Positions 12,054 to 48,119 of a DNA stretch of 64,000 bases are shown piece by piece. This DNA is from Candidatus Acidiferrales bacterium (lineage in GTDB: Bacteria; Acidobacteriota; Terriglobia; Acidiferrales; UBA7541). The first letter of the stretch is position 1, and every line of letters starts with the position of its first letter. Location: the NCBI GenBank assembly GCA_035934015.1, contig DASYYH010000006.1, forward strand, positions 1 to 64,000. The letters are read 5' to 3'. The position numbers and the translations under genes were made by a program. The notes below the pieces were generated by a model. It searched no databases and was not told the origin of the DNA. It saw only the letters and a program-made list of their open reading frames with translations.

Positions 12054-12095
12054 GCGGGAGTTTTCTTCGAGTTTTTGCAAAAGGAGCAGGGAGAC

Positions 12096-12761
12096 ATGAA
12101 CGCCGTTGTTATGGGTAAGGGAAAATGGATGTTACTTGCGCCGGCGCTGCTGATCGCGCTGTTGGTGACATACGGTCAAGACAAAAAGACGGCGTCTGCC
12201 GCAGCGGATCCTCCGTCGAAGGCGGTTCAACCGGAACAGCCGGCAAGTACTGTGGAGAAGCCTGTAATTGACGCGAAGTCTTACGTTATTGGCGAAAACG
12301 ACATGCTGGACATCGATGTGTGGAAGGAAAAGGAGATCTCACGGCAGATACCTGTGAGGCCAGATGGCAAGATCTCGCTACCGCTGATCGGTGAAATTCA
12401 GGCAAGCGGGCTTACACCGCTGCAGCTTCAAGACAATATCACGCGGCTCCTGAAGGCATACATTGAGAATCCGGAAGTGACCGTGATCGTTGATGACCCG
12501 CGCAGCCACCAATTCAACATCGTCGGTCAAGTGACGCGGCCAGGTACTTATCCACTGAGCGAATCCATGACCGTCCTCGATGCCCTCGCGGAAGCGGGCG
12601 GATTCAGAGATTTTGCAAAGGAAACGAAGATTTATGTTTTGCGGCCTGTTCCCGGAGGGATACGAGTGCGCATTCCGTTCGATTACAAGGCCGTGATCCG
12701 CGGACGCAGCCTGCAGGAAAACGTGGTGTTGAAACCTGGGGATACGATTGTAGTTCCTTGA
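12096..12761 (+). CDS. Polysaccharide export protein (Wza/EpsE type, SLBB domain)
   Basis: A 221-residue exported protein. An N-terminal hydrophobic segment (WMLLAPALLIALLVTYG) acts as signal or anchor; it has no lipobox cysteine. The Poly_export domain begins at SYVIGENDMLDIDVWKEKEI, and an SLBB domain follows (NIVGQVTRPGTYPL ... LKPGDTIVVP). Such proteins form the periplasmic/outer-membrane channel for EPS. ATG 12096 is chosen because AAGGAG (12081-12086) is 9 nt upstream; an in-frame TTG at 12075 is less likely. First gene of a run of closely spaced EPS genes. Confidence 0.88.
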   Translation: MNAVVMGKGKWMLLAPALLIALLVTYGQDKKTASAAADPPSKAVQPEQPASTVEKPVIDAKSYVIGENDMLDIDVWKEKEISRQIPVRPDGKISLPLIGEIQASGLTPLQLQDNITRLLKAYIENPEVTVIVDDPRSHQFNIVGQVTRPGTYPLSESMTVLDALAEAGGFRDFAKETKIYVLRPVPGGIRVRIPFDYKAVIRGRSLQENVVLKPGDTIVVP

Positions 12762-12771
12762 GATCGGCTGA

Positions 12772-14121
12772 ATGCGACGACTGATACCAATCCGAGCAGG
12801 CGCTTGTGCGGCGATTCTCTTGCTGGCCACATCCGCTTGGGGACAGAGCAATGGCGGAACGCCCTCGCTGAACTCAAACGTCCCCGTGCTGGCAAGTGGT
12901 CAAATGCCAGCGGCGATACCCTCGGCCAGTGCTGAATTGGAGAACGTTTTCCAGATGAACCTTTCAGCAGGGACGCATTTTGATGACAATGTGCTTCCGG
13001 GATTAACGCCGCGGCAATGGGATTCGGGCTACATCTTCTCTCCCTCATTCGGGTTCACGGAAACGTTGCCTCGGGTAGATTGGGGAGTCGACTACGGTCC
13101 AGGCATTGATATCAGCCAAAATCTAAACTATCGAAATCAGTTCACGCAGAAGTTTGACGGGCACGTGACTTGGCTAACGTCAGCGCGCGGGACTTTGATG
13201 GCCCAGCAATACTATCTGGTCAGCACGGATCCCTTCGCGCAACTGGGCCAAGGCAATAATTTGCCTGGCCCGGGCGTTTCACCCAATCAGTCGGTATACC
13301 TCCCGAACATTCGACGAACTCAAATTGTTTCCAATGCTTTGTACTCTTACCAGATCGGGGAACACACGATGTTCGGGCTGGGAGGCGGATTTAACCAGGA
13401 GCGCTTTGACAATACGCCGCATTCTGGTCCAACGACGGCATTGATTTACTCCCAGGTGGCTTCCGGAGAGGCCTACATTTCGCACCAGTTCAACGCAAAG
13501 AACCAATTGGGAGTTCAGTATGGCCTTCAGGTACTGAAATTCCCACGTCAGAACGCACGGACCACGACTCATTCGTTTGAGGTTTTCGATCAGATGAATA
13601 TTTCGCCAACCAGCAGTTTCACGCTATACGGCGGACCGGAATATTCCCAGACGGCCAACGAAATCGAACTGAGCCTGGGCTTTATCGTCATCACTATTCC
13701 GGTCAGCGCTAACCAGTGGTCGGCAGCCGGCGGGGTGATTTACAACTGGATCGGGAATCGCGTTGCTGTATCGGTCGATTACTCGCGGAGGGTCAGCGAT
13801 GGCGGTGGTTTGGTAGGAGCAGTGGAACTGAATACAGGATCGGCCAAATTGACCACAAGGCTGACATCGCGATGGTCTTTTTTCACGACGGTTGCAGGCA
13901 GTTCTGACCAATTGCTGGCGTCTTCTTCCTCGTCGCAGGGTTCGATGCTGACTTATTCCGGCGAGGTTGGGTTGCAGCAGCAAATCTGGCGAGATGTCGC
14001 GATGAATTGGTTTTATGAAAGATTGAATGAAACCGGAGGCTTTGCGGGGTTCCCGGTCGGGAACCATGACATAGCCGGCGCGTCGCTTACTTACACGTTT
14101 ACGAAACCGCTTGGGAGGTAG
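12772..14121 (+). CDS. Outer-membrane beta-barrel protein of PEP-CTERM/EPS locus
   Basis: A 449-residue protein with a signal peptide (cleavage likely after TSAWG) and a remainder rich in alternating hydrophobic and polar strands, Gly, Asn and aromatic residues, ending in SLTYTFTKPLGR. This is the pattern of the large outer-membrane barrels annotated as PEP-CTERM system-associated hypothetical proteins between the export protein and the chain-length regulator. It may form the outer-membrane pore for the polymer. It starts 10 nt after the export gene and ends 2 nt before the next gene. Confidence 0.75.
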   Translation: MRRLIPIRAGACAAILLLATSAWGQSNGGTPSLNSNVPVLASGQMPAAIPSASAELENVFQMNLSAGTHFDDNVLPGLTPRQWDSGYIFSPSFGFTETLPRVDWGVDYGPGIDISQNLNYRNQFTQKFDGHVTWLTSARGTLMAQQYYLVSTDPFAQLGQGNNLPGPGVSPNQSVYLPNIRRTQIVSNALYSYQIGEHTMFGLGGGFNQERFDNTPHSGPTTALIYSQVASGEAYISHQFNAKNQLGVQYGLQVLKFPRQNARTTTHSFEVFDQMNISPTSSFTLYGGPEYSQTANEIELSLGFIVITIPVSANQWSAAGGVIYNWIGNRVAVSVDYSRRVSDGGGLVGAVELNTGSAKLTTRLTSRWSFFTTVAGSSDQLLASSSSSQGSMLTYSGEVGLQQQIWRDVAMNWFYERLNETGGFAGFPVGNHDIAGASLTYTFTKPLGR

Positions 14122-35612: not shown

Positions 35613-36734
35613 ATGCCGATCACCATCCAACCTTACACAGAGTCGTTCGTCCCTGCGGTGAAGAATTTCAATCGGCGCTTGAAATCGGCCGGCTGCTTTT
35701 CTGATTTTTTGTTTTTTGAACACCACTTATCGGATTCGCTTCCGAAAATCCCGGGACAAGACCTTTACGAGGAATATTTTCTCGCCGTTGAAGATGGCAC
35801 CGTACGAGGCGGATTCGCCTTGAAACATCAACAATTTTCTTTTTTGGGAGAGCTTAAGCCGATCGTCTTCTACCATTTCCCTCTTTCGGAGGGGATCGTC
35901 GACAAGACGTACACGAATGTGGGCGTTCACATGCTCAGGAAGGCCTGGCGCGATAATCCGCTTATGTTTGCCTTGGGCATGGGCGGGTTCGAACAGCCCC
36001 TACCCCGTATGCTCAAGGCTTTGGGTTGGAGCATGTGTCTTGTACCTTTCTATTTCAGGGTTCTGCGTCCCTTCCGGTTTTTGCGTGGGATGGCGGAATT
36101 GCGGGAATCGGCCACAAAACGGCTGGCGATGGATGCGGCAGCGTTTACAGGAATGGGCAGTGTCGCGATTCGAGTCATTCAAGGATTTAAGTCGTCAAGA
36201 AAAGGCATAGGGCAAACGTTCGTCGCACAGGAGATTTACGAATTTGACGAATGGGCGAACTTCCTATGGAAGAAATGTAATTCACAATACGCAATGCTCG
36301 GGGACCGCACGAGCAGAGCGCTCAATCTTTTGTACCCGGCGGAAACCGAGCGATTCATTCGCGTGAAAGTGGAGGCCAGTGGCGAACCAATAGGTTGGCT
36401 GGTGTTATTGGACACGCAGATGCACAACAATAGACATTTCGGTGACCTTCGCGTCGCCTCGATCGTCGATTGTTTGGCGCCGCTCGAAAATGCCGCTGAA
36501 GTCATCCGGGCTGGGACGCAATTCCTGCAAGAAAAACGTATTGACCTGATCATTTCCAATCAGTCCCACACTGCATGGGTCGCCGGACTGGAGCGAAGCG
36601 GTTTTCTTCAAGGACCTTCAAATTGCGTGTTTGCTGCTTCTCCTAAGCTGGCGGAATTGCTGCAGCCCTTTACGGAGAAGGTTCGTGAATCGCATCTGAA
36701 TCGAGGTGACGGCGACGGCCCAATTCACCTTTGA
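35613..36734 (+). CDS. GNAT-like acyltransferase, probable acceptor-side partner of the ACP
   Basis: A 373-residue protein with two weak GNAT-type halves (YEEYFLAVEDGTVRGGFALKHQQF and GEPIGWLVLLDTQMHNNRHFGDLRV). No precise family is recognised. Its position 17 nt after the ACP gene suggests that it transfers the ACP-bound acyl or glyceryl group to a sugar or lipid acceptor of the EPS. ATG 35613 is chosen because the conserved-looking region starts there; the frame is open further upstream inside the ACP gene. Confidence 0.65.
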   Translation: MPITIQPYTESFVPAVKNFNRRLKSAGCFSDFLFFEHHLSDSLPKIPGQDLYEEYFLAVEDGTVRGGFALKHQQFSFLGELKPIVFYHFPLSEGIVDKTYTNVGVHMLRKAWRDNPLMFALGMGGFEQPLPRMLKALGWSMCLVPFYFRVLRPFRFLRGMAELRESATKRLAMDAAAFTGMGSVAIRVIQGFKSSRKGIGQTFVAQEIYEFDEWANFLWKKCNSQYAMLGDRTSRALNLLYPAETERFIRVKVEASGEPIGWLVLLDTQMHNNRHFGDLRVASIVDCLAPLENAAEVIRAGTQFLQEKRIDLIISNQSHTAWVAGLERSGFLQGPSNCVFAASPKLAELLQPFTEKVRESHLNRGDGDGPIHL

Positions 36735-36806
36735 TTCAGCATAAAATTCCTGTGGGACTCGCTCAACGTAGATCACCCCTGCTTTATGAGCCTGCATCGA
36801 GACGAA

Positions 36807-39074
36807 TCACTTCAGCTTCAATATGTAGACATGTGCTTCGTAGGGGCGGAACGAATCTGAAAAACCGTCTTGCGCATCGATCGGCAAGGTTCGGTTTTCC
36901 GAATATACTTCAACCGATTGCAAACCCTGTGGAACATTCGAAAGAGAAAAACGCACATCCTTGGCTTCTGTTGGCGAGTCATTGCTTGCAAAAATAACTT
37001 CGCGTGAAAAATCTGACTTCACGAGAATTTGAATTTTCGAGCCATTGGGCAATTTAACGAATCCACTTCGCGCCGGGAGAATGAGAATGGAATTCAGCGC
37101 GGTGACTTCATCGGAGAGCTTCTTGAAATCGTAATATGGCTGCTGATTGTGGCGCGCATACCATTCTCCTTCGATGCCCTGCGCACTCACAAATCCCCAC
37201 CACCAAATCCCATTCGCGCCGTGAATAATGGAGGTATAGGCGGAATATTTCATCTGATCGTACGTCGGAAATTTTCCCCATTGCCGCATGAGCTGCAAAA
37301 CCATCCATACCGGACGCGCGTGCTCGACCTGCCGTTCCGTTTCCTGCGTCCACAACGGCACGCGCAGCATTGGCGGCTCATAAAGGGGGAGCACAGGCAT
37401 GACCAGCTTCAACCCAAGCGCATATTCGTCGGCGTTGATTGGTATGCCTACGGGATAGGGGTCACAACCGATTGCGTCCGCCGCGTCGCGCCAGCGAAAG
37501 ATCTGATTGGCGCTGATCAGCGCTCCGAATGCGACAGAGCCGGAATTGTTTTCGCGCAGCACTTTGTATTGATCGAATACCGTCGGAAGCTCCTCGAGTT
37601 TCGGCTCGTCGAATGTGTAATAGCCAATGCCGCCGCGCTTCCCGCGCATCATTTTTCCCGCGAGTTCCCAGAGTTTTTCGTCAGAAAGCGAGCCGGCCCA
37701 AAACGGGCGATAGCGATTCGTCTTCACCCAGTTGTTGACCGTCTGCAGATACCCGACGCCATAGTGCCCGAGCGCCTCAAGGGCAGGGTCAAGCTGATCA
37801 TAAATTGCAGGCGGTCCAGGCGCCATTGCTGACCATGGCGCAAAGTTAATCAACGCGTTCGTGTGCGTGTCCTGATAATTCTGCAGCCTGCCCTTTCCGT
37901 CAAAACCTTTTATCGCCGTCTCATACTCCCGCGCTGTTCGGTACATGCACAGCTGGCAGGCATAGGCTCCGCTGGTGCGGTCGTAGACTCCCCACACAAA
38001 TTCTTTCTGCCCGTTGTGCACCAGAAAATTGTCCGTATCGATGTAGTTCACCAAACTCGCCTGGAACGTGCTGCTCACCTTCGTCACCCGGTAATCCGGA
38101 TAGCTCGACACCACCGCTCCGGTGCTGTCCAGCAGGTTGGTGTGGATCAGATACGAACCTAATGCCAGTGAAGTCCCGTCGATATCGATTTCCTGTGTGG
38201 CTTGGGCGGCTTGCTGCACGGTGTTGACGATGCTGCCACCTTCGGTTTGCAGGACGATCTGCGCGCTCATGCCGGAGGGACTGGCGACTTCGACGTGCAG
38301 GCGGATGGTTTGCGAGCCGGTCTGCCAGAGGTAGCCGCGGAAGTTGGGGTAGAGCAGGAAAGTAGAGATGGGCAGCGGCATCTCCGGCTGCGCCGTCACA
38401 TCGTCAAACCACAGCGTTCCGCGTGGCGCCTGGCCGCGCGGAGCAACCGGCATCAGACGGATGCGCAGCTTGTCGCCGTCATGCAAGGGCAGCACGTCGA
38501 CATCGCGGAGAACGATCTGCGTCCAATCCGTGCCAACCGATGTCTCTGCTGTACTGCCGACCGGCAGCGTTCCATCCGTGTCGTTGAATACATAAATTCT
38601 GGCTTGCAGATTGCCGCCCGCAGAAGTCTTCGCCCATACGCTGAAAGCGTAAGGGGAGCCAGCCTTGAACACAAATTCGGGAGGCGACGCAAAACCTCCG
38701 CATAGAAAGCCTGCATCATAACGCAGCGAATGCGATCCGGAATGAGAAACAGCCGAATCGAGAGTAAAGCACCGGGGAATAGACCATCCGAGCGTTCCCG
38801 ATTCTAGCCCCGCGTTCTCGAGTACATTCGCTCCAAGTTGTCGCGCGGGCGGCAGCGCCATCAATCCGCCTGCTATCGTCGAGCCGGGCCCGAGGCCGCT
38901 CTCCTTTTTGGCGCTCGTCTTGGGCAGGACACAAAAAACAGCAACGACCGCACTCAGAAAGAAAGTCGCTGCGATTTCGATTCGGCAATGGCGAAAAATC
39001 ATAGACCTCATTCTAACCCCGGGCGATTGGTCCGGGCTACAATTTGAGGTCTCATTAGAAGGTCTCGCATTCAA
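36807..39074 (-). CDS. Secreted glycosidase-like protein (paralogue A)
   Basis: A 755-residue exported protein. A hydrophobic signal segment lies at about residues 33-50; TTG 39074 has GGAGAT 6 nt upstream, while ATG 39011 would give a more normal signal peptide. Residues about 75-235 look like a carbohydrate-binding jelly roll, followed by a beta-sandwich shared with paralogue B and a barrel-like domain with GYYTFDEPKLEELP, GCDPYP and GANGIWWWGFVSAQGIEGEWY. The DE of TFDEP and the glutamates of EGEWY are candidate catalytic acids. Probably acts on the exported polysaccharide. It is divergent from the glycosyltransferase gene at 39163. Confidence 0.7.
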   Translation of the reverse strand: MNARPSNETSNCSPDQSPGVRMRSMIFRHCRIEIAATFFLSAVVAVFCVLPKTSAKKESGLGPGSTIAGGLMALPPARQLGANVLENAGLESGTLGWSIPRCFTLDSAVSHSGSHSLRYDAGFLCGGFASPPEFVFKAGSPYAFSVWAKTSAGGNLQARIYVFNDTDGTLPVGSTAETSVGTDWTQIVLRDVDVLPLHDGDKLRIRLMPVAPRGQAPRGTLWFDDVTAQPEMPLPISTFLLYPNFRGYLWQTGSQTIRLHVEVASPSGMSAQIVLQTEGGSIVNTVQQAAQATQEIDIDGTSLALGSYLIHTNLLDSTGAVVSSYPDYRVTKVSSTFQASLVNYIDTDNFLVHNGQKEFVWGVYDRTSGAYACQLCMYRTAREYETAIKGFDGKGRLQNYQDTHTNALINFAPWSAMAPGPPAIYDQLDPALEALGHYGVGYLQTVNNWVKTNRYRPFWAGSLSDEKLWELAGKMMRGKRGGIGYYTFDEPKLEELPTVFDQYKVLRENNSGSVAFGALISANQIFRWRDAADAIGCDPYPVGIPINADEYALGLKLVMPVLPLYEPPMLRVPLWTQETERQVEHARPVWMVLQLMRQWGKFPTYDQMKYSAYTSIIHGANGIWWWGFVSAQGIEGEWYARHNQQPYYDFKKLSDEVTALNSILILPARSGFVKLPNGSKIQILVKSDFSREVIFASNDSPTEAKDVRFSLSNVPQGLQSVEVYSENRTLPIDAQDGFSDSFRPYEAHVYILKLK
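37971..38399. repeat. Near-identical 429-bp block shared with 41552-41980 (copy A)
   Basis: A hand alignment with 41552-41980 needs no gaps (constant offset 3581) and shows about 18 mismatches in 429 bp. The core 38067-38265 has only two. The flanks fall quickly to much lower identity on both sides. It encodes the stretch from WGVYDRTS back to AQPEMPLPIS. Confidence 0.9.
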
Positions 39075-39114
39075 AGTGAAATCTCCGCCATTAATCCTTA
39101 CAAAAAGGCTACGA

Positions 39115-39123
39115 TGCTATAGC
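39115..39123 (+). promoter_or_regulatory. Extended -10 promoter candidate before the GT4 gene
   Basis: TGCTATAGC has TGn followed by TATAGC (4 of 6). It resembles the stronger TGCTATAAT at 33417. It lies 40 bp before TTG 39163 in the 88-bp divergent region. Confidence 0.35.
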
Positions 39124-39162
39124 GCAAGAGCAGAACCGACGGATGTTTCCTCGGAGTGTGCC

Positions 39163-40404
39163 TTGGAGACCAAACCAAAAATCTTGCACGTAGAAGTTGG
39201 CGGTACTTATGGCGGATCGCTGAGAGCCTTGGAATTATATTTGGCGCACTGCAATCGACAAGAGCTGGCGCACGACTTGCTGTTCTACTATCCGACTCCA
39301 AATGCAGAAAAGCTTGCGCCGCACGTGGAGAAACTGACGACACTCTACCGGGCCGCGCCGGCATGGCTGAGCCAATCCTCTGGAAGCCAGCGTTCGGAGA
39401 GCAGCAAATTGCGACGCCTTGCGCGGCACCCTGGAATTGCCGCAATGCGAAACTGGATATCTCTCGTCCGGCAATTTCCCATCGCACGTCGGCTGGCGCA
39501 AGTCATCCGAGAAGGGAGCTACGACTTAGTTCATGTCAATAACACTTTCACTTACCAGGCTCCGACGCTCCTTGCAGCAAGATTAGCTGGCATTCCCGTC
39601 GTCGCGCACGTGCGCAATCCTGTGACGAACACTCAGTTCGCTCGCTTTCTCGCTCGACGAGCGAGATGTCTAGTGTCTGTGGCCGACGTGCATTCGGAGA
39701 ACATCCGCAAAATGGACGCCTCATTGCGCGTTGTAACCTGCCGGGATGCGGTCGAGCGCGTTTTGGTCAACCCTGAGAGTTCCCGCTTATTGCATGACGC
39801 GCTCGCAAAGAAAGGCGAGATCTTGGTTGGCTCGCTTGGAAGACTCGATCCGCAGAAGGGCTTCGAGTTCCTGATACGAGCGGCAGCGCTTGTCGTCAAA
39901 GAAGCGCCGAACGTTCGGTTTGCCGTCGCTGGCGACGGCACTCAGAAAAAACAGCTCGAAGAACTCATTGTCTCCCTCAGCTTACAGGAACATTTTCGGC
40001 TCATAGGGTTTCGTTCGGATTCCGGGAACTTTCTTGCTGCATTGGACGTTTACGCCGTCTCTTCATTGTGGGAGGGATTGCCGCTTGCCTTGCTTGAGGC
40101 GATGCAACTGAAAAAGGCTGTAGTGGCAACAGCGGTCGGGGGAATTCCCGAGGTTGTGCGGGATCATGTAAACGGCATCCTAGTGCCACCTCAAGAAACA
40201 GAGAAACTTGCCGCGGCGATTCTGGAAGTGATTCGCAATCGTGAATTGAGATTTGGACTGGGTGATATTGCGCCGAAGGCCGCTGAGCCATTCTGTGACT
40301 TGAAGGCGCGAGCAGCCGAACTGGATTCCTTATTTCCCGCCGTACTAGACACACGCCTCCACGATGAGATGCGCCATCGGAATGCGAGGCCTACTGTAAT
40401 GTGA
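39163..40404 (+). CDS. Glycosyltransferase family 4 (GT-B)
   Basis: A 413-residue GT-B enzyme. It starts KPKILHVEVGGTYGGSLRALELYL and has DLVHVNNTFTYQAP, GSLGRLDPQKGFEFLIRAAALV and SSLWEGLPLALLEAMQLKK, with the E-x7-E donor motif. TTG 39163 is preferred because CGGAG (39152-39156) lies 6 nt upstream and the family N terminus begins here; the frame is open upstream but there it runs antisense through paralogue A. Its end overlaps the end of paralogue B by 14 bp, tail to tail. It is embedded between the two paralogues. Confidence 0.88.
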   Translation: METKPKILHVEVGGTYGGSLRALELYLAHCNRQELAHDLLFYYPTPNAEKLAPHVEKLTTLYRAAPAWLSQSSGSQRSESSKLRRLARHPGIAAMRNWISLVRQFPIARRLAQVIREGSYDLVHVNNTFTYQAPTLLAARLAGIPVVAHVRNPVTNTQFARFLARRARCLVSVADVHSENIRKMDASLRVVTCRDAVERVLVNPESSRLLHDALAKKGEILVGSLGRLDPQKGFEFLIRAAALVVKEAPNVRFAVAGDGTQKKQLEELIVSLSLQEHFRLIGFRSDSGNFLAALDVYAVSSLWEGLPLALLEAMQLKKAVVATAVGGIPEVVRDHVNGILVPPQETEKLAAAILEVIRNRELRFGLGDIAPKAAEPFCDLKARAAELDSLFPAVLDTRLHDEMRHRNARPTVM

Positions 40405-43400
40405 TGATGTACACGTGAGCGTCGTAAGGCGCGAAGGAATCAGTGAAGCTCAGACCGCTAAGGTTCAGCGTGCGATTCTCGCTATAGACCGTCACTGTCG
40501 AGTTCGACGGCGTGACGATAGAAGCAAGATTGAACGTCACGTTATTCACGGCCGAGGCCGAGTCGCTTGTGGCGAAGATCACAACCTGCGTAGGGCTGGC
40601 TTTCACCCGCGTTTCAATCTGATTGCTCGAGACAGAGCTGAGGTCCTGCGGTTGTGGAGGAGAAATCAAGTAAGACTGCAAAGCCTGCACTTCCCCGGAA
40701 AGCTGTTTGAAGTCGAAATAAGCCTGATAATTCTGGCGCTGATACCATTCTTCTTCAATGCCCGCGCCGCTCACGAAACCCCACCACATGATGCCATTGG
40801 CGCCGCCAATGATCGCCTTGTACGCAGATTGTTTCATTTCTGCGTAGGTCGGGAACTGTCCCCACTGGCGCCAGAGTTGCAGAACTGCCCAAACCGGACG
40901 GCTTTTGAACACCTGTTGCTCGCTTCCTTCCGTCCAGAGTGAGACTCGGACGGTTGGGGCAATGTACAAAGAAGATGTGGCCGCAACCTCCGGGGCTCCC
41001 ACGGCGTATTCGTCCGCTCCGACAGGAACTCCTATGGGGTAGGGGTCGCAACCAGTCACATCGCTGATATCGCGCCAGCGATAAATCTGGTCAGCAGTGA
41101 TGAGCGCGCCCCAGGCAACGGAGCCGGGATTGTACTGCCTTAGGGTTTGATACTGCGCAAAAACACCGGGGAGCATTCCTAGCTTTGGCTCGTCGTAAGT
41201 GTAGTATCCAAGACCGCCAGATTTCCCCGCCATCATGCTCGCGGCCAGTTGCCACAACTGCGGATCCGTCAAGGACGTCGCCCAGAATGGCCTGTACTGA
41301 TTGCCAGAAATCCAGTTGTTCACGGTTTGCAGATACCCGACTCCTTCGCTCTGAAGTGCCTGCATCGCAGGGTCGAGTTGGTCGTATACGGCAGGCGGCC
41401 CCGGCGACATTGCCGACCATGGCGCAAAATTGGTCATGGCATTTAGTTGCGTGTCCCCGTAATTCCCGATTGTGCCTAGATTGTTGAACCCAGCAATGTT
41501 GTTGTCATATGCTGCCGCGGTTGTGTACATGCAAAGGCTGCAGCGAATGCTGCTGGTGCGGTCGTACACGCCCCACACAAATTCCTTCTGCCCGTTGTGC
41601 ACCAGAAAATTGTCCGTATCGATGTAGTTCACGAGACTCGCTTGGAATGTGCTGCTCACCTTCGTCACCCGGTAATCCGGATAGCTCGACACTACCGCTC
41701 CGGTGCTGTCCAGCAGGTTGGTGTGGATCAGATACGAACCTAATGCCAGTGAAGTCCCGTCGATATCGATTTCCTGTGTGGCTTGGGCGGCTTGTTGCAC
41801 GGTGTTGACGATGCTGCCACCTTCGGTTTGCAGGACGATCTGCGCGGTCATCCCTGAGGGGGTGCCGGCTTCGACGTGCAGGCGGATGATTTGCGAGCCG
41901 GTCTGCCACAGGTAGCCGCGGAAGTTGGGGTAGAGCAGGAAAGTAGAGATGGGCAGCGGCATCTCCGGCTGCGCCGTCACGTCGGAGAACCATACTGTCC
42001 CACTAGGCGTTTGCCCACTAGGCGCGGATACCACTAAGCGCGCTTCGATATTGTCTCCATTATGCAGCGGCAGCATGTCGAAATCCGGAACGCTGATGTA
42101 TGTCCAGTTCGTCCCAACGGTCACGGGACTATTGCCTCCGACGGAAAGCCCGCTGTCCGTCCCGTCGGCGAGTTTAATTTGAGCTTCAAGATTGCTGCCT
42201 ACAGAGGCTTTTACCCACGCACCGATTGTGTATGAGGTGTTCGCTTGAAAAACGAAATTGGGAGCATATGCAGCTGAAGCGCAAGATGAACCTGCCGCGT
42301 ACTTGAGCGATGCCGAGGCTCCTGTGTATGCAACCGTTGAATCCATGCTCCAGCAGGTTGGAATGTACCATCCCGTATTTCCATTTTGCATGTTCCCGTT
42401 CGGCAGGATGTTGCTTCCGAGCTGACGGCTCGGCGGGAGCGCAAGCAGGCCTCCAGCCATCGTCGACCCCGGCCCAACATTTCCTGACGTATTGCTGGAA
42501 ATCGTTATGCTCAGCGTTTGCGTTGCGGTGTTTGGCGGCATCGCCGAGTCGTTCACTTGAACTGTAAACGAGAATTGCCCCGTCGCAGTTGGTACCCCGC
42601 CGATAGCTCCACTCGCGCTATCAATAGCCAGGCCCGGCGGAAACTGTCCAGAGGTCACGCTCCAACTATAGCCGGGAACCCCACCAGATGCTTGAAGCGC
42701 CACGGAGTAACCCTGGCCCACAACTCCGCCGAGGAGTGAAGTCGTATTGATTTGCAGCGACGATTGAGGTTGCGTCGTGCCGATTTGGATGTTCAGCGAC
42801 TGTTGCGCGGAGAGTCCGGTCGAATCCTTGACAGCCAAAGTGAACGTCGATTGGCCAGACTGCGTTGGCGTACCCGCGATTCCTCCTGTAGCGGCTGAAA
42901 GAACTAGTCCGACAGGAAGCGCACCTGAAGTGATGCTCCACGTGTAAGGGGCTGTTCCGCCGGTCGCAGTGGCGGCAGTGCTGTATGCGACGCCCACTTG
43001 ACCCGCCGGCAGATTAACGGTCGAAATCTTCAGGGCACTGCCGGGTGTCACCACGCTAACCTGTAGAGCCTGCGTCGCGCTCGTCGTCGGCGAAGCAGAG
43101 TCTTGGACCTGAACCGTGAAAGTATAGTTGCCAGCGACCGTAGCTTTGCCGGCGATCGTGCCGGTTGCGCCGGTTAGAGAAATTCCCGGAGGGAGCGAGC
43201 CAGAAGTAATGCTCCACAGATATGGTGTCTGACCTCCCGTCGCATTAAGCAAGACCTTGTAGGACATCATCGGCTGCGTAGTCGGTAGAGCTGTCGTAGT
43301 GATTGCCACAGCAGATTGCTGGGAGAGGTTTTTTGATCCAGCCCCCGCCGTTAATCCACAACCGGATTCTAGAAACGGGAGAAACACCAGGAACAAAAGA

Positions 43401-43516
43401 AGGATGAGTAGCGATCGAGCCGCACCAACTACGTCGGTGCCACCTGCTAGACGAGCGCTTCGACAGTTGGGAGCATAACTAGCCAGTTTATTAATTACAC
43501 GAGTACTGCACCCCAT
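40391..43516 (-). CDS. Secreted glycosidase-like protein with Ig-like repeats (paralogue B)
   Basis: A 1041-residue exported protein. After a hydrophobic segment (about 34-52, with a Cys at 53 in a poor lipobox context) come three putative Ig (He_PIG-like) repeats, each with a PYxWSxTSGxxPxGL pattern, at about 70-155, 158-245 and 250-340. The remainder parallels paralogue A: GPGSTMAGGLLALPPSRQLG, a jelly-roll-like domain, the near-identical block, and a barrel with GYYTYDEPKLGMLP and GANGIMWWGFVSGAGIEEEWY. ATG 43516 has AGGGAGG (43530-43524) 7 nt upstream. It probably modifies or binds EPS outside the cell; catalytic activity is inferred only. Confidence 0.72.
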   Translation of the reverse strand: MGCSTRVINKLASYAPNCRSARLAGGTDVVGAARSLLILLLFLVFLPFLESGCGLTAGAGSKNLSQQSAVAITTTALPTTQPMMSYKVLLNATGGQTPYLWSITSGSLPPGISLTGATGTIAGKATVAGNYTFTVQVQDSASPTTSATQALQVSVVTPGSALKISTVNLPAGQVGVAYSTAATATGGTAPYTWSITSGALPVGLVLSAATGGIAGTPTQSGQSTFTLAVKDSTGLSAQQSLNIQIGTTQPQSSLQINTTSLLGGVVGQGYSVALQASGGVPGYSWSVTSGQFPPGLAIDSASGAIGGVPTATGQFSFTVQVNDSAMPPNTATQTLSITISSNTSGNVGPGSTMAGGLLALPPSRQLGSNILPNGNMQNGNTGWYIPTCWSMDSTVAYTGASASLKYAAGSSCASAAYAPNFVFQANTSYTIGAWVKASVGSNLEAQIKLADGTDSGLSVGGNSPVTVGTNWTYISVPDFDMLPLHNGDNIEARLVVSAPSGQTPSGTVWFSDVTAQPEMPLPISTFLLYPNFRGYLWQTGSQIIRLHVEAGTPSGMTAQIVLQTEGGSIVNTVQQAAQATQEIDIDGTSLALGSYLIHTNLLDSTGAVVSSYPDYRVTKVSSTFQASLVNYIDTDNFLVHNGQKEFVWGVYDRTSSIRCSLCMYTTAAAYDNNIAGFNNLGTIGNYGDTQLNAMTNFAPWSAMSPGPPAVYDQLDPAMQALQSEGVGYLQTVNNWISGNQYRPFWATSLTDPQLWQLAASMMAGKSGGLGYYTYDEPKLGMLPGVFAQYQTLRQYNPGSVAWGALITADQIYRWRDISDVTGCDPYPIGVPVGADEYAVGAPEVAATSSLYIAPTVRVSLWTEGSEQQVFKSRPVWAVLQLWRQWGQFPTYAEMKQSAYKAIIGGANGIMWWGFVSGAGIEEEWYQRQNYQAYFDFKQLSGEVQALQSYLISPPQPQDLSSVSSNQIETRVKASPTQVVIFATSDSASAVNNVTFNLASIVTPSNSTVTVYSENRTLNLSGLSFTDSFAPYDAHVYIITLQ
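41552..41980. repeat. Near-identical 429-bp block shared with 37971-38399 (copy B)
   Basis: Partner of the block in paralogue A, in the same orientation and reading frame, about 96% identical without gaps, whereas neighbouring parts of the two genes are clearly diverged. Confidence 0.9.
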
Positions 43517-43886
43517 CCCGTAGCCTCCCTAAACCAACGCCGGTCGCCCCCATTACCGGCTTTGAGCACTATGTTGAACTGTAAAGGGGCTCCAAAACAC
43601 CTGCTCGCAGGGCGAGAAAAGGGGCAGGAATAAACTACCTGTACGGCGAGTGGTCCTTTGGACAGGTTATGCGGCCATCGGCAATCTGTGGATTGCAAGT
43701 ACTTCACGCACTAGAAGGCGCTCAGTCCCGGGTGTTTGGGTATCAAACTCCATCGACCCTATGACCACCCCTGGAAGACCCCCCGAACGAGATAAAGACC
43801 TTCGCAAGTGCTTACAGCCAACGCAGTGGTCTTGCCTTACCTGATTGCCATAGTGCTATTCTTAGGAAGAAGTCTCTCTGTGTATG

Positions 43887-43900
43887 TGCAATGTTTTGCA
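43887..43900. promoter_or_regulatory. Palindrome TGCAA-N4-TTGCA, candidate activator site 2
   Basis: TGCAATGTTTTGCA, matching the copy at 48262 in 11 of 14 positions. It lies about 180 bp upstream of the GG of the -24/-12 candidate at 44079, a usual distance for a sigma-54 enhancer site. Confidence 0.55.
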
Positions 43901-44077
43901 ACTAATCCGACTGTCTCATATATGCACCGGAAAACGCGAATCGCTAAATTTAAGTCGTTTATTATGTTTAATATAATAGGATGATTGGGAGTGCGATACA
44001 TATAGTTAGGTACTCGTCTTGCACTGAAAAACTGCGCAGTTGTGCTGCAATGGTCTGTCACTTATCATCAGTAAGTC

Positions 44078-44093
44078 TGGTGGCGCTGTTGCG
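44078..44093 (+). promoter_or_regulatory. Sigma-54 (-24/-12) promoter candidate of the exosortase operon
   Basis: TGGTGGCGCTGTTGCG has GG at 44079-44080 and GC at 44091-44092, exactly 10 bp between, with TTGC at -12. The -24 half is a weak match beyond TGG. A start near 44104 leaves about 37 nt to the exosortase ATG. Confidence 0.4.
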
Positions 44094-44140
44094 ATCCCAA
44101 CCAGCAGATTATTGGGAAGCGATATAAGGAAGAAGGAAGA

Positions 44141-45034
44141 ATGGAACCGACTGCAGCGGGGGCCATTTCGACGACAAGGACAATCCAAGAGCGGGTACCT
44201 TGGTCCGCCTGGCTGGCAGGCTTATCCGTTCTATTCCTGGTTCTTTATGGGCCAATCCTGGAGTCGTTAGTTCTCAATTGGTGGAGAGACCCGAACTACG
44301 GCCATGGTTTCTTGGTTCCGGTCTTTGCGGGCTATGCGTTTTGGAAGCAGCGTGATTCCCTGGCTAAGATCGCCTTGAAGCCAACGAACCTTGGCTTCCT
44401 TGTCATGCTCGCAGCTATTGCTCTGTTGCTATTGGGTTCGCTTGGCGCAGAGCTTTTTACTAGCCGGTTTTCGATGTTGGTGCTGATTTCTGGTTGTGTT
44501 CTGTTTTTGGGAGGGTGGAAGTTCCTGCGCGCAATAACGTTCCCGCTGGGTTTTTTGATTTTGATGATTCCTATCCCGACGATTATCTACAACCAGATCA
44601 CGTTTCCTCTGCAACTTTTGGCTTCTCGCTTCGCGACTTTCTGGCTCCAATTGATCAACGTTCCGGTTTTGCGTGAAGGCAATCTTATCATCCTGCCGAA
44701 CTATACGCTCGAGGTCGTGGACGCGTGCAGCGGCATTCGCTCTTTGATGACGCTGATCACACTTGCCATTGCCTATGGCTACCTGGTGGAGCGCAGGGTT
44801 TGGGTTCGGTGGCTTCTCGTGATCCTCATGATTCCCATCGCGATCGTCAGCAATGCCATCCGGATTATGGGTGCGGGCGTATTGACGTTTCACTATGGTC
44901 CTACCATGGCCGAAGGTTTTTTCCATGAGTTTTCCGGCTGGGTAATTTTTGTCGCCGCATTGGTACTGATGTTCGTTTGCCACTGGATCCTTCGCAGAGT
45001 TCCATTCGGCAGGGAGAGCAAAGAAAATGGGTAG
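44141..45034 (+). CDS. Exosortase (PEP-CTERM sorting transpeptidase)
   Basis: A 297-residue integral membrane protein with about eight membrane segments. The three catalytic residues of exosortases are all present: Cys196 in VVDACSGIRSLM, Arg241 in SNAIRI, and His262 in GFFHEFSGW. It should cut PEP-CTERM proteins at the inner membrane and couple them to a carrier or polysaccharide. It is a stand-alone exosortase, not fused to EpsI as in many exosortase A proteins, but EpsI is encoded next to it. Its stop overlaps the EpsI start by 8 bp. Confidence 0.93.
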   Translation: MEPTAAGAISTTRTIQERVPWSAWLAGLSVLFLVLYGPILESLVLNWWRDPNYGHGFLVPVFAGYAFWKQRDSLAKIALKPTNLGFLVMLAAIALLLLGSLGAELFTSRFSMLVLISGCVLFLGGWKFLRAITFPLGFLILMIPIPTIIYNQITFPLQLLASRFATFWLQLINVPVLREGNLIILPNYTLEVVDACSGIRSLMTLITLAIAYGYLVERRVWVRWLLVILMIPIAIVSNAIRIMGAGVLTFHYGPTMAEGFFHEFSGWVIFVAALVLMFVCHWILRRVPFGRESKENG

Positions 45035-45695
45035 CTGGCGGATGACCGTGCGTCTTTGCATCGTAGCGGCCACGCTTCTAGGTGGGACAGTCCTGCTTCA
45101 CGCGATGAGTCACGGTGAACCTGTCGTAGCGCGCGAATCCTTCAGCAGCCTGCCGTATAGCATTGGAGATTGGTCCGGGCGGCAAATTCCTATGACGGCG
45201 AACCCCACTGACGATGCGCGAATTGTTCAGGCACTCAGCGTCACGGATTACACTAGCCGGGAGTATACGACTGGGCTTTCTATCCCGCCGGTCGATCTTT
45301 ACATCGGCTATTATGCGAGCCAGAGAACTGGCGACACGATTCATTCGCCGAAAAATTGCTTGCCCGGTGCCGGGTGGGAGCCTACTCATGTTGGCGACGC
45401 CACAATCACGCTGTTGAATGGGAAGAAAATCGTCGTCAATGATTACGTGATTGCGCAAGGCCTCAACAAGGAACAGGTATTCTATTGGTATCAGGGTCGC
45501 GGCCGCGTCATCGCGAGTGAATATTGGGGGAAATTTTGGATGATCGACGACGCGATCACAAAAAATCGAACGGATGGCGCGCTGGTTCGAGTCATAACCC
45601 CTATTTTAGGAAATGACACGGCTCAGGCGCGCGCACGCCTGGTGAACTTCACTCGGCAGCTCTTTCCGTTGCTTGGCAAATACATTCCGAATTAG
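45027..45695 (+). CDS. epsI: EpsI family protein
   Basis: A 222-residue protein with one N-terminal membrane segment (LCIVAATLLGGTVLLHA) and a periplasmic domain with LPYSIGDWSGRQIPM, YIGYYASQRTGDTIHSPKNCLPGAGWEP and VFYWYQGRGR, typical of the EpsI (DUF3485) family that always accompanies exosortases. Its exact job is unknown. It overlaps the exosortase gene by 8 bp, and the TPR lipoprotein gene follows 24 bp later. Confidence 0.92.
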   Translation: MGSWRMTVRLCIVAATLLGGTVLLHAMSHGEPVVARESFSSLPYSIGDWSGRQIPMTANPTDDARIVQALSVTDYTSREYTTGLSIPPVDLYIGYYASQRTGDTIHSPKNCLPGAGWEPTHVGDATITLLNGKKIVVNDYVIAQGLNKEQVFYWYQGRGRVIASEYWGKFWMIDDAITKNRTDGALVRVITPILGNDTAQARARLVNFTRQLFPLLGKYIPN

Positions 45696-45719
45696 AGGAT
45701 TTAGATAGGGAGAAATTCT

Positions 45720-48119
45720 ATGAAACGCGCATGGATTCGGGTTATGGCGGCTCTGGTTTCGACTCTCGCCGCATCTTTGCTGCTGGCATCTTGTGCCACG
45801 AACCCGCAAAAGGCAAAGCTCGCTTACCTCACCAAAGGCCAGGACTACATGAAAAAGAGCCAGTATGCGAGTGCGGCCATCGAGTTTAGGAACGCGCTCA
45901 AGGTCGACCCCAAATATGCGGAGGCCTATTACCAGCTTGCGCTCGCTAGCGAAGCACAGGGTGACCTGAAGACCGCCTACGGCGCCCTAAACCAAGCCAT
46001 TTCCGTGGATCCAAGCCGCTCCGATATTCGCCTCGCGCATGGCGGCTTTTTGCTGGCAACCAGGAATCCCCAGTATTATTCCGACGCCGCCAGCGACGCC
46101 AATTTCGTCCTCAAGCAGGACCCGAAGAATGTGGATGCCCATCGCCTTCTCGGAATGATTTACGGCAGCGAAAATAAATACGATCAAGCACTCGAGGAAT
46201 TCGCCAAAGTCGTGACGATCAATCCGAACGATGCCAGATCGTATGTGGATTTGGGACTGGTCAATCTGCAAATGGGACACACTTCTGACGCCGAAGACAA
46301 CGAGAAAAAGGCCATTCAGGTGAATCCAAAGTATTTGGCTGCTTATGCAGCTTTGGCTGACGTCTATCGAATTCAAAAGCAGCTGGGACTTGCGGAGCAA
46401 GCCCTTCAGCGGGGAATCCAGGCAAATCCCGATGCTATAAAGCTATATGAAGAATGCGCCCAGGTATTCATGGCGGACGGCAAACAAGCCAATGCAGAAC
46501 AGGTATTGCAGCAGGGCATTCAAGCGAATCCCAGTGCCGTGCCTCTCTATCTGGATTCGGCAAGCGTGCTCTGGGCAGAAGGCAAGAAATCGGAAGTTGA
46601 CTCCGTTTTTGGCGAGCTTTCCAGCCAGATGCCTAAATCCATCGATGTTGCCGAGAAAATTGGCGACTTTTATCTTCAAAAAAATATGAGTGATCAGGCC
46701 ATTTCCTCATATCAGCGCGGACTTTCAATGGATCCGAAGAATCTCGAGCTACAAAACAGGATCGAGGATACCTACCTCACGATCAACAAAACAGACCTCG
46801 CTGCGCAAGTCGACGAACAAGTGATGAAGCAGGCGCCGAATGACGTGACAGTGCGCATCGATCACGGCCGCTTGCTCATGGCCCAGAATCGCCTTCAGGA
46901 TGCCGTCAATTTGTTGCAGAAAATTGTTTCTGACACGCCAGATTCACCCCAGGCGCATTATTTTCTTGCCATGGCTTTGGAGAATTTCGGCAATTTTTCC
47001 GACGCAAGCGCACAGCTCCAGGACGCCATCCGCGTGAGGCCCGGCCTTCCCGTTGCGCTGAACGCGTTAGTCAATCTGAACGTCACCCAGCATAACTATT
47101 CCGTCGCGCAACTCTATGCGAATGAGCTCGTGAATCAGGATCCTTCGAACGCAAAATACCAACTCGAACTGAGTCAAATCCTGATGAACCTGGGCCTGCT
47201 CAAGGAAGCTAACGAGCATCTCGATGCTGCTCAAAAAGTGGCTCCCAATGATCCTTCCGTTCATGCGGTCCGTGCTGCTATCCATGTCGCCGAGAAGAAG
47301 TATCCGGAAGCGGAGGCGGAATACAAGACCGCTCTCGCCGCGGCTCCTCAGGACACCGGTATTCTCAGGGCTTATGCCTACTTCCTTGTTTCGCAAAAGC
47401 AGCAGGCTAAGGCGGACCAATTGATCTCGCAGTTTATCAGCCAAAATCCGAACAATCTCGACGGGCACTTGCTTAGAGGGTTGATGGCCGATCAGGAAAA
47501 GGATTACGCCACCGCTCAATCGGAGACACAAAAGGCCATCGACCTCAGCCCGAAAAACGCCAGTTGCTATCTCCAGATGGGCCAGATCTATCGCGATCAA
47601 CACAAAGACGCCGAAGCCTTGCAGGAGTATCAGCAGGCGACGCAGTTTGCCGCTCCCTCGGCGCCAATTATCACGGTGATCGGTAATATCTATATTGACC
47701 AGGGAGATCTTCCGAAGGCCGTAGAATCGTTTCAGAAGGCTCTCAACATCGATCCTAATTTTGCGATTGCCCAGAATAATCTTGCCTGGGTTTACGCCCA
47801 GCAAAACCAGAACCTCGACGTCGCGCTCACTCTGGCGCAAACCGCAAAGGCCAAGAATCCGCAGATCGTGGATTTTTCCGACACGATGGCTTGGGTCATG
47901 TACCGCCAGGGCAAATATGCCCAGGCGTTACCGTTGCTTCAGGAGTGCGTCAAGCGCGATCCGAACTTCGCGCAGTACCACTTTCATCTCGGCATGGTCC
48001 TGATGGCTGATGGCCAGAAGTCCGAAGGGCGGGCCCAGCTCGAGGCAGCCCTGCACCTGAACGACCTCAAGAGCGACGACGCACAGCAGGCTCGCCAGAT
48101 TTTGGCCAAGGCGCAGTAG
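45720..48119 (+). CDS. prsT: TPR-repeat lipoprotein of the PEP-CTERM system (PrsT-like)
   Basis: A 799-residue lipoprotein. The signal peptide ends in the lipobox LLASC with Cys25 as the lipidated residue. The rest is almost entirely TPR helices, with repeated motifs such as KSQYASAAIEFRNALKVDPKYAEAYYQLA. Length and layout match the PEP-CTERM TPR lipoprotein family. It should be an outer-membrane scaffold for EPS or sorting components. GGGAG (45708-45712) is the ribosome site. It is the last gene of the exosortase operon. Confidence 0.9.
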   Translation: MKRAWIRVMAALVSTLAASLLLASCATNPQKAKLAYLTKGQDYMKKSQYASAAIEFRNALKVDPKYAEAYYQLALASEAQGDLKTAYGALNQAISVDPSRSDIRLAHGGFLLATRNPQYYSDAASDANFVLKQDPKNVDAHRLLGMIYGSENKYDQALEEFAKVVTINPNDARSYVDLGLVNLQMGHTSDAEDNEKKAIQVNPKYLAAYAALADVYRIQKQLGLAEQALQRGIQANPDAIKLYEECAQVFMADGKQANAEQVLQQGIQANPSAVPLYLDSASVLWAEGKKSEVDSVFGELSSQMPKSIDVAEKIGDFYLQKNMSDQAISSYQRGLSMDPKNLELQNRIEDTYLTINKTDLAAQVDEQVMKQAPNDVTVRIDHGRLLMAQNRLQDAVNLLQKIVSDTPDSPQAHYFLAMALENFGNFSDASAQLQDAIRVRPGLPVALNALVNLNVTQHNYSVAQLYANELVNQDPSNAKYQLELSQILMNLGLLKEANEHLDAAQKVAPNDPSVHAVRAAIHVAEKKYPEAEAEYKTALAAAPQDTGILRAYAYFLVSQKQQAKADQLISQFISQNPNNLDGHLLRGLMADQEKDYATAQSETQKAIDLSPKNASCYLQMGQIYRDQHKDAEALQEYQQATQFAAPSAPIITVIGNIYIDQGDLPKAVESFQKALNIDPNFAIAQNNLAWVYAQQNQNLDVALTLAQTAKAKNPQIVDFSDTMAWVMYRQGKYAQALPLLQECVKRDPNFAQYHFHLGMVLMADGQKSEGRAQLEAALHLNDLKSDDAQQARQILAKAQ

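Follow-up and report, generated by a model that had tools for sequence, protein, structure and literature searches.

Very probable repeated gene conversion of one internal stretch in a pair of old paralogues from Candidatus Acidiferrales

Two paralogous genes, A and B, lie close together in a 64,000-nt stretch of a Candidatus Acidiferrales genome (contig DASYYH010000006.1; the whole stretch is called the window). They are clearly diverged along most of their common length and nearly identical across one internal tract. How has this tract stayed alike while the rest of the two genes drifted apart? Comparison with relatives supports one answer with high confidence: A and B descend from an old duplication, and one internal stretch of about 420–490 nt has repeatedly been copied between them by gene conversion. 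Both paralogues are also held by two other genomes of the genus, G001 and G003, which were deposited as Acidobacteria or Candidatus Acidiferrales metagenome-assembled genomes. The window genome is G000, and A0/B0, A1/B1 and A3/B3 are the paralogues A and B of G000, G001 and G003, respectively.

The codon alignment of the tract in G000 contains 18 mismatches among 423 aligned positions (95.7% identity). A whole-genome DNA search with 37971-38399 as the query matched 41552-41980 at 96% across the full 429 nt, and a repeat search paired 37971-38270 with 41552-41851 at 97%. Calculated for each 60 nt, A-B identity is 80–100% within the tract and 38–77% outside. Synonymous divergence (dS) between A0 and B0 is 0.13 within the tract, whereas synonymous sites outside are near saturation (proportions of synonymous differences, pS, of 0.74 and 0.82) and the A-B dS of the flanks is at least 1.7. 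When the polymorphic sites were permuted, none of 5000 permutations matched the observed segment score (124 versus a maximum of 21). An Rfam search of 36000-44500 found no RNA family to account for the synonymous conservation. An earlier account made without database searches (the sequence-only reading) had described a 429-bp block of about 96% identity with about 18 mismatches, next to clearly diverged parts of the same genes. The DNA search, the codon alignment and the identity profile agree with it on both points.

The sites of the four G000 and G003 sequences were sorted into those grouping by paralogue (A0=A3, B0=B3) and those grouping by species (A0=B0, A3=B3). In the 5' flank 113 sites group by paralogue and 4 by species, and in the 3' flank 46 and 5. 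The tract shows the opposite pattern, with 0 and 29 (flanks combined 159 versus 9, tract 0 versus 29; Fisher p = 4e-27). Synonymous changes make up 19 of the 32 species-grouping sites. Likelihood trees of the flanks group the sequences by paralogue with bootstrap values of 97–100. Consistently, the approximately unbiased (AU) test rejected grouping by species for each flank and grouping by paralogue for the tract (each p < 1e-6). The tract is likewise homogenised in G003: its dS is 0.13 for A0-B0 and 0.37 for A3-B3, both below the orthologue dS of 0.58. In the tract, the paralogues are closer within species than the orthologues between species, and synonymous sites are homogenised too, which is the pattern that defines concerted evolution. 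The flank trees, together with the position of B beside an exosortase gene in all three species, point to a duplication older than the species split rather than to independent recent duplications.

In G001 the tract is not homogenised. A1 and B1 are about 54–79% identical there (dS about 2.2; proportion of nonsynonymous differences, pN, 0.215), as diverged as their surroundings, which indicates that the encoded domain is not intrinsically invariant. The sequence-only reading had suggested conversion and proposed a comparison with relatives. That comparison supports it, with tract sites grouping by species and flank sites and trees by paralogue. The uniformly high identity of the domain among distant homologues, which it had named as the observation that would speak against conversion, is contradicted by the G001 tract.

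The proposed course of events begins with the A/B duplicates, which would have arisen before the three congeneric species split. Homologous recombination (gene conversion) would then have repeatedly copied the stretch encoding an immunoglobulin-like (Ig-like) beta-sandwich together with the beginning of the region after it, the rest being too diverged to recombine. Identical A-B runs inside the tract measure 98, 71, 51, 47 and 44 nt in G000 and 74, 71, 46 and 34 nt in G003, and the longest runs outside are 14 nt and 11 nt, respectively. In G001, one of the seven runs of at least 12 nt lies in the tract. RecA could use the identical runs of 40–98 bp that are kept only in the island, and conversion would in this way preserve the homology it needs; the run lengths make it plausible that the island maintains itself. 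The surviving events were probably of the non-crossover type, because the copies are direct repeats, between which a crossover would remove the intervening genes. In this scheme the homogenised stretch alone would stay recombinable, and so remain alike for long while the rest escapes, with no special selection on the domain needed. We put the scheme forward tentatively, as a serious candidate short of a favoured conclusion.

The conversion might instead be real but kept by selection for an identical domain, for example one binding the same partner or polysaccharide. The whole predicted Ig-like domain lies in the tract, and a precedent exists in the mtrA-1/mtrA-2 pair, for which selection for complex assembly was proposed (PMC4632066). 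However, the tract extends into the next region and its edges vary between species, and G001 retains both genes with diverged domains. The limits of the tract are also accounted for without selection by the missing recombinable homology outside it. Selection of this kind is possible but doubtful.

How many events are needed is a separate question. A single conversion just before or just after the split of G000 and G003, with no later exchange in both lineages, would fit the similar edges and the mosaic pattern that the two species have in common. Among the sites common to all four sequences, alignment columns 600-719 are B1-like at 26 and A1-like at 6, and columns 780-839 are A1-like at 14 and B1-like at 4 (Fisher p = 7e-5); this pattern suggests a mosaic tract, made of A-like and B-like pieces that were exchanged both ways. 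However, no tract site groups by paralogue, and when the species-grouping sites were polarised with G001, 9 were derived in G003 and 7 in G000. Derived sites common to A and B within each of the two species imply that both lineages exchanged sequence after they split, unless polarisation with a single near-saturated outgroup misleads. The edges also differ in detail, in that G003 has a 46-nt identical run whose first position, alignment column 472, precedes the G000 tract by about 38 nt. Post-split exchange in both lineages and differing edges together indicate repeated concerted evolution, and a single conversion is improbable. The mosaic probably formed in the G000/G003 ancestor, after which exchange would have gone on separately in both lineages. 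The sequence-only reading of "recent conversion or recombination" therefore holds for conversion but not for a single recent event, since, according to the data, a mosaic tract has been homogenised repeatedly in two species.

Several points weigh against repeated conversion. The polarisation uses one outgroup species, whose own paralogues are near saturation. In a free tree of the tract, A3-B3 has a bootstrap of 94%, but the branch separating the A0-B0 pair has only 50%. The pair is present in only three species, and all genomes used are draft assemblies. In G003, gene A is cut off by the end of a 3 kb contig distinct from the one that carries B. This contig and the end of the B contig overlap with only 90% identity, and A3 and B3 could therefore stem from different strains. 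The draft state of the assemblies and the broken contig would also favour an artefact, in which both copies were built from short reads of one, by collapse or chimeric joining. However, collapse would yield identity, yet 18 differences remain and the longest exact A0-B0 run is 98 nt. Moreover, within the tract B0 has 11 sites of its own and A0 has 3, and the tract recurs in an independently assembled congener, where the edges differ and the two copies share mutations particular to that species. Assembly collapse is an unlikely cause, and we give an artefact of this kind very little probability. Strong purifying selection or convergence, keeping the domain alike in both proteins without DNA exchange, can practically be dismissed, as the sequence-only reading had argued for protein selection alone: the tract is somewhat more constrained (orthologue pN 0.03 versus 0.05–0.09 in the flanks), but its synonymous sites are homogenised within and not between species, and the G001 paralogues differ in the same domain.

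Concerted evolution by gene conversion is a known process, and A and B provide an instance in which it is limited to roughly a single protein domain. Among described cases, mtrA-1/mtrA-2 of Methanococcales and Methanomicrobiales (PMC4632066) comes nearest. Both cases involve neighbouring ancient paralogues with one repeatedly converted domain and another part that differs, and in both the paralogues are closer within than between species and the alternative topology is rejected. In mtrA conversion homogenises the main functional domain, and domain shuffling has made the remainder differ (PMC4632066). In A and B, by contrast, the converted part is an internal accessory domain, both flanks are homologous but diverged, and only three congeners are involved. 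Concerted evolution in prokaryotes is known mostly for whole, highly conserved genes, and a survey listed 26 prokaryotic genes in which it is long-lasting (PMC6053082). Exchange between chromosomal paralogues that homogenises synonymous sites too is shared by A/B with tufA/tufB and other such genes (PMC6053082) and with Salmonella tuf, where conversion, shortened by mismatch repair, is experimentally established (PMC5485169). Unlike tufA/tufB, A and B have a short island converted within otherwise diverged genes. The boundary between converting and non-converting sequence is internal to both genes, and a sister species without conversion provides a built-in control, which makes the pair a natural test of how conversion stops once homology runs out. 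A tree built from such genes, or from single domains, can be misleading.

Table 1. Positions of the paralogues, the tract and the intervening gene in the window
Feature	Positions	Strand	Description
Paralogue A	36807-39074	-	755 aa open reading frame; weak CBM_4_9 module, Ig-like domain, C-terminal half without Pfam match
Paralogue B	40391-43516	-	1041 aa; three He_PIG Ig-like repeats, CBM_4_9, Ig-like domain, C-terminal half homologous to A
Probable converted tract in A	37977-38399	-	423 nt in codon alignment
Probable converted tract in B	41558-41980	-	423 nt in codon alignment
Predicted seven-strand Ig-like beta-sandwich of A, inside tract	38079-38342	-	structure model
Glycosyltransferase group 1 open reading frame	38908-40404	+	between A and B

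According to the structure model, the tract covers one predicted Ig-like beta-sandwich domain and the start of the next region, and so approximates one domain without being equal to it. The strands of the sandwich are model residues 18-105 of a fragment starting at 38393. The model is of moderate quality, with a mean predicted local distance difference test score (pLDDT) of 59.8, with seven strands in the sandwich and only weak matches to generic Ig-like folds and CopC. A sequence search of the PDB likewise gave weak matches only (CopC, E 0.012). Within the tract, 44 nt (columns 804-847; A about 38068-38111, B about 41649-41692) are identical in the four G000 and G003 copies, third codon positions included, and the corresponding part of A1 is similar.

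Homology between A and B spans about 695 residues. The architectures of the paralogues differ as well, the three N-terminal-side He_PIG repeats of B being missing from A. The open reading frame of A opens at a TTG, and the true start may be an internal ATG; its CBM_4_9 module scores below the cut-off. The C-terminal half has no Pfam match; a distant homologue matches a GH2 TIM barrel at E=0.058. An AlphaFold model of the whole A region (mean pLDDT 42.7) was too poor for use. On these matches a catalytic role of the C-terminal half is unproven, and the earlier label "glycosidase-like" rests on weak evidence.

Among 89 genomes searched in the family, only the three congeners contain the tract at length, and neither 60 nearer relatives nor 299 genomes of the class yielded a comparable full-length relative. 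A mobile module spreading alone was also considered; the restriction of the tract to these congeners leaves it unsupported.

The glycosyltransferase gene between A and B is no part of the exchange. Its annotated TTG start overlaps A, and the true start probably lies further in. Between B and A, each of the three species has genes of its own, though both flanking genes are kept (38908-40404; L027:6763-7860, 12074-13267; L029:308-1525). They comprise this glycosyltransferase in G000, a different glycosyltransferase in G001, and at least an acetyltransferase-like gene and a third glycosyltransferase in G003. The G001 orthologue of the window glycosyltransferase sits outside the pair. The separation of the two paralogues by a glycosyltransferase gene, noted in the sequence-only reading, is thus true in G000 but incidental. 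In G003, the two contig ends (L028:10479-10707 and L029:3-231) overlap by 229 nt at 90%, which suggests that the assembly broke where strains vary or that an acetyltransferase-like gene is duplicated. Adjoining the pair in the window, 44141-48119 holds an exosortase (EpsH), EpsI/DUF3485 and a long repeat-rich protein, probably of the tetratricopeptide repeat (TPR) type. A protein with a PEP-CTERM-like tail is also found near the pair in G003 (L028:1575-2210).
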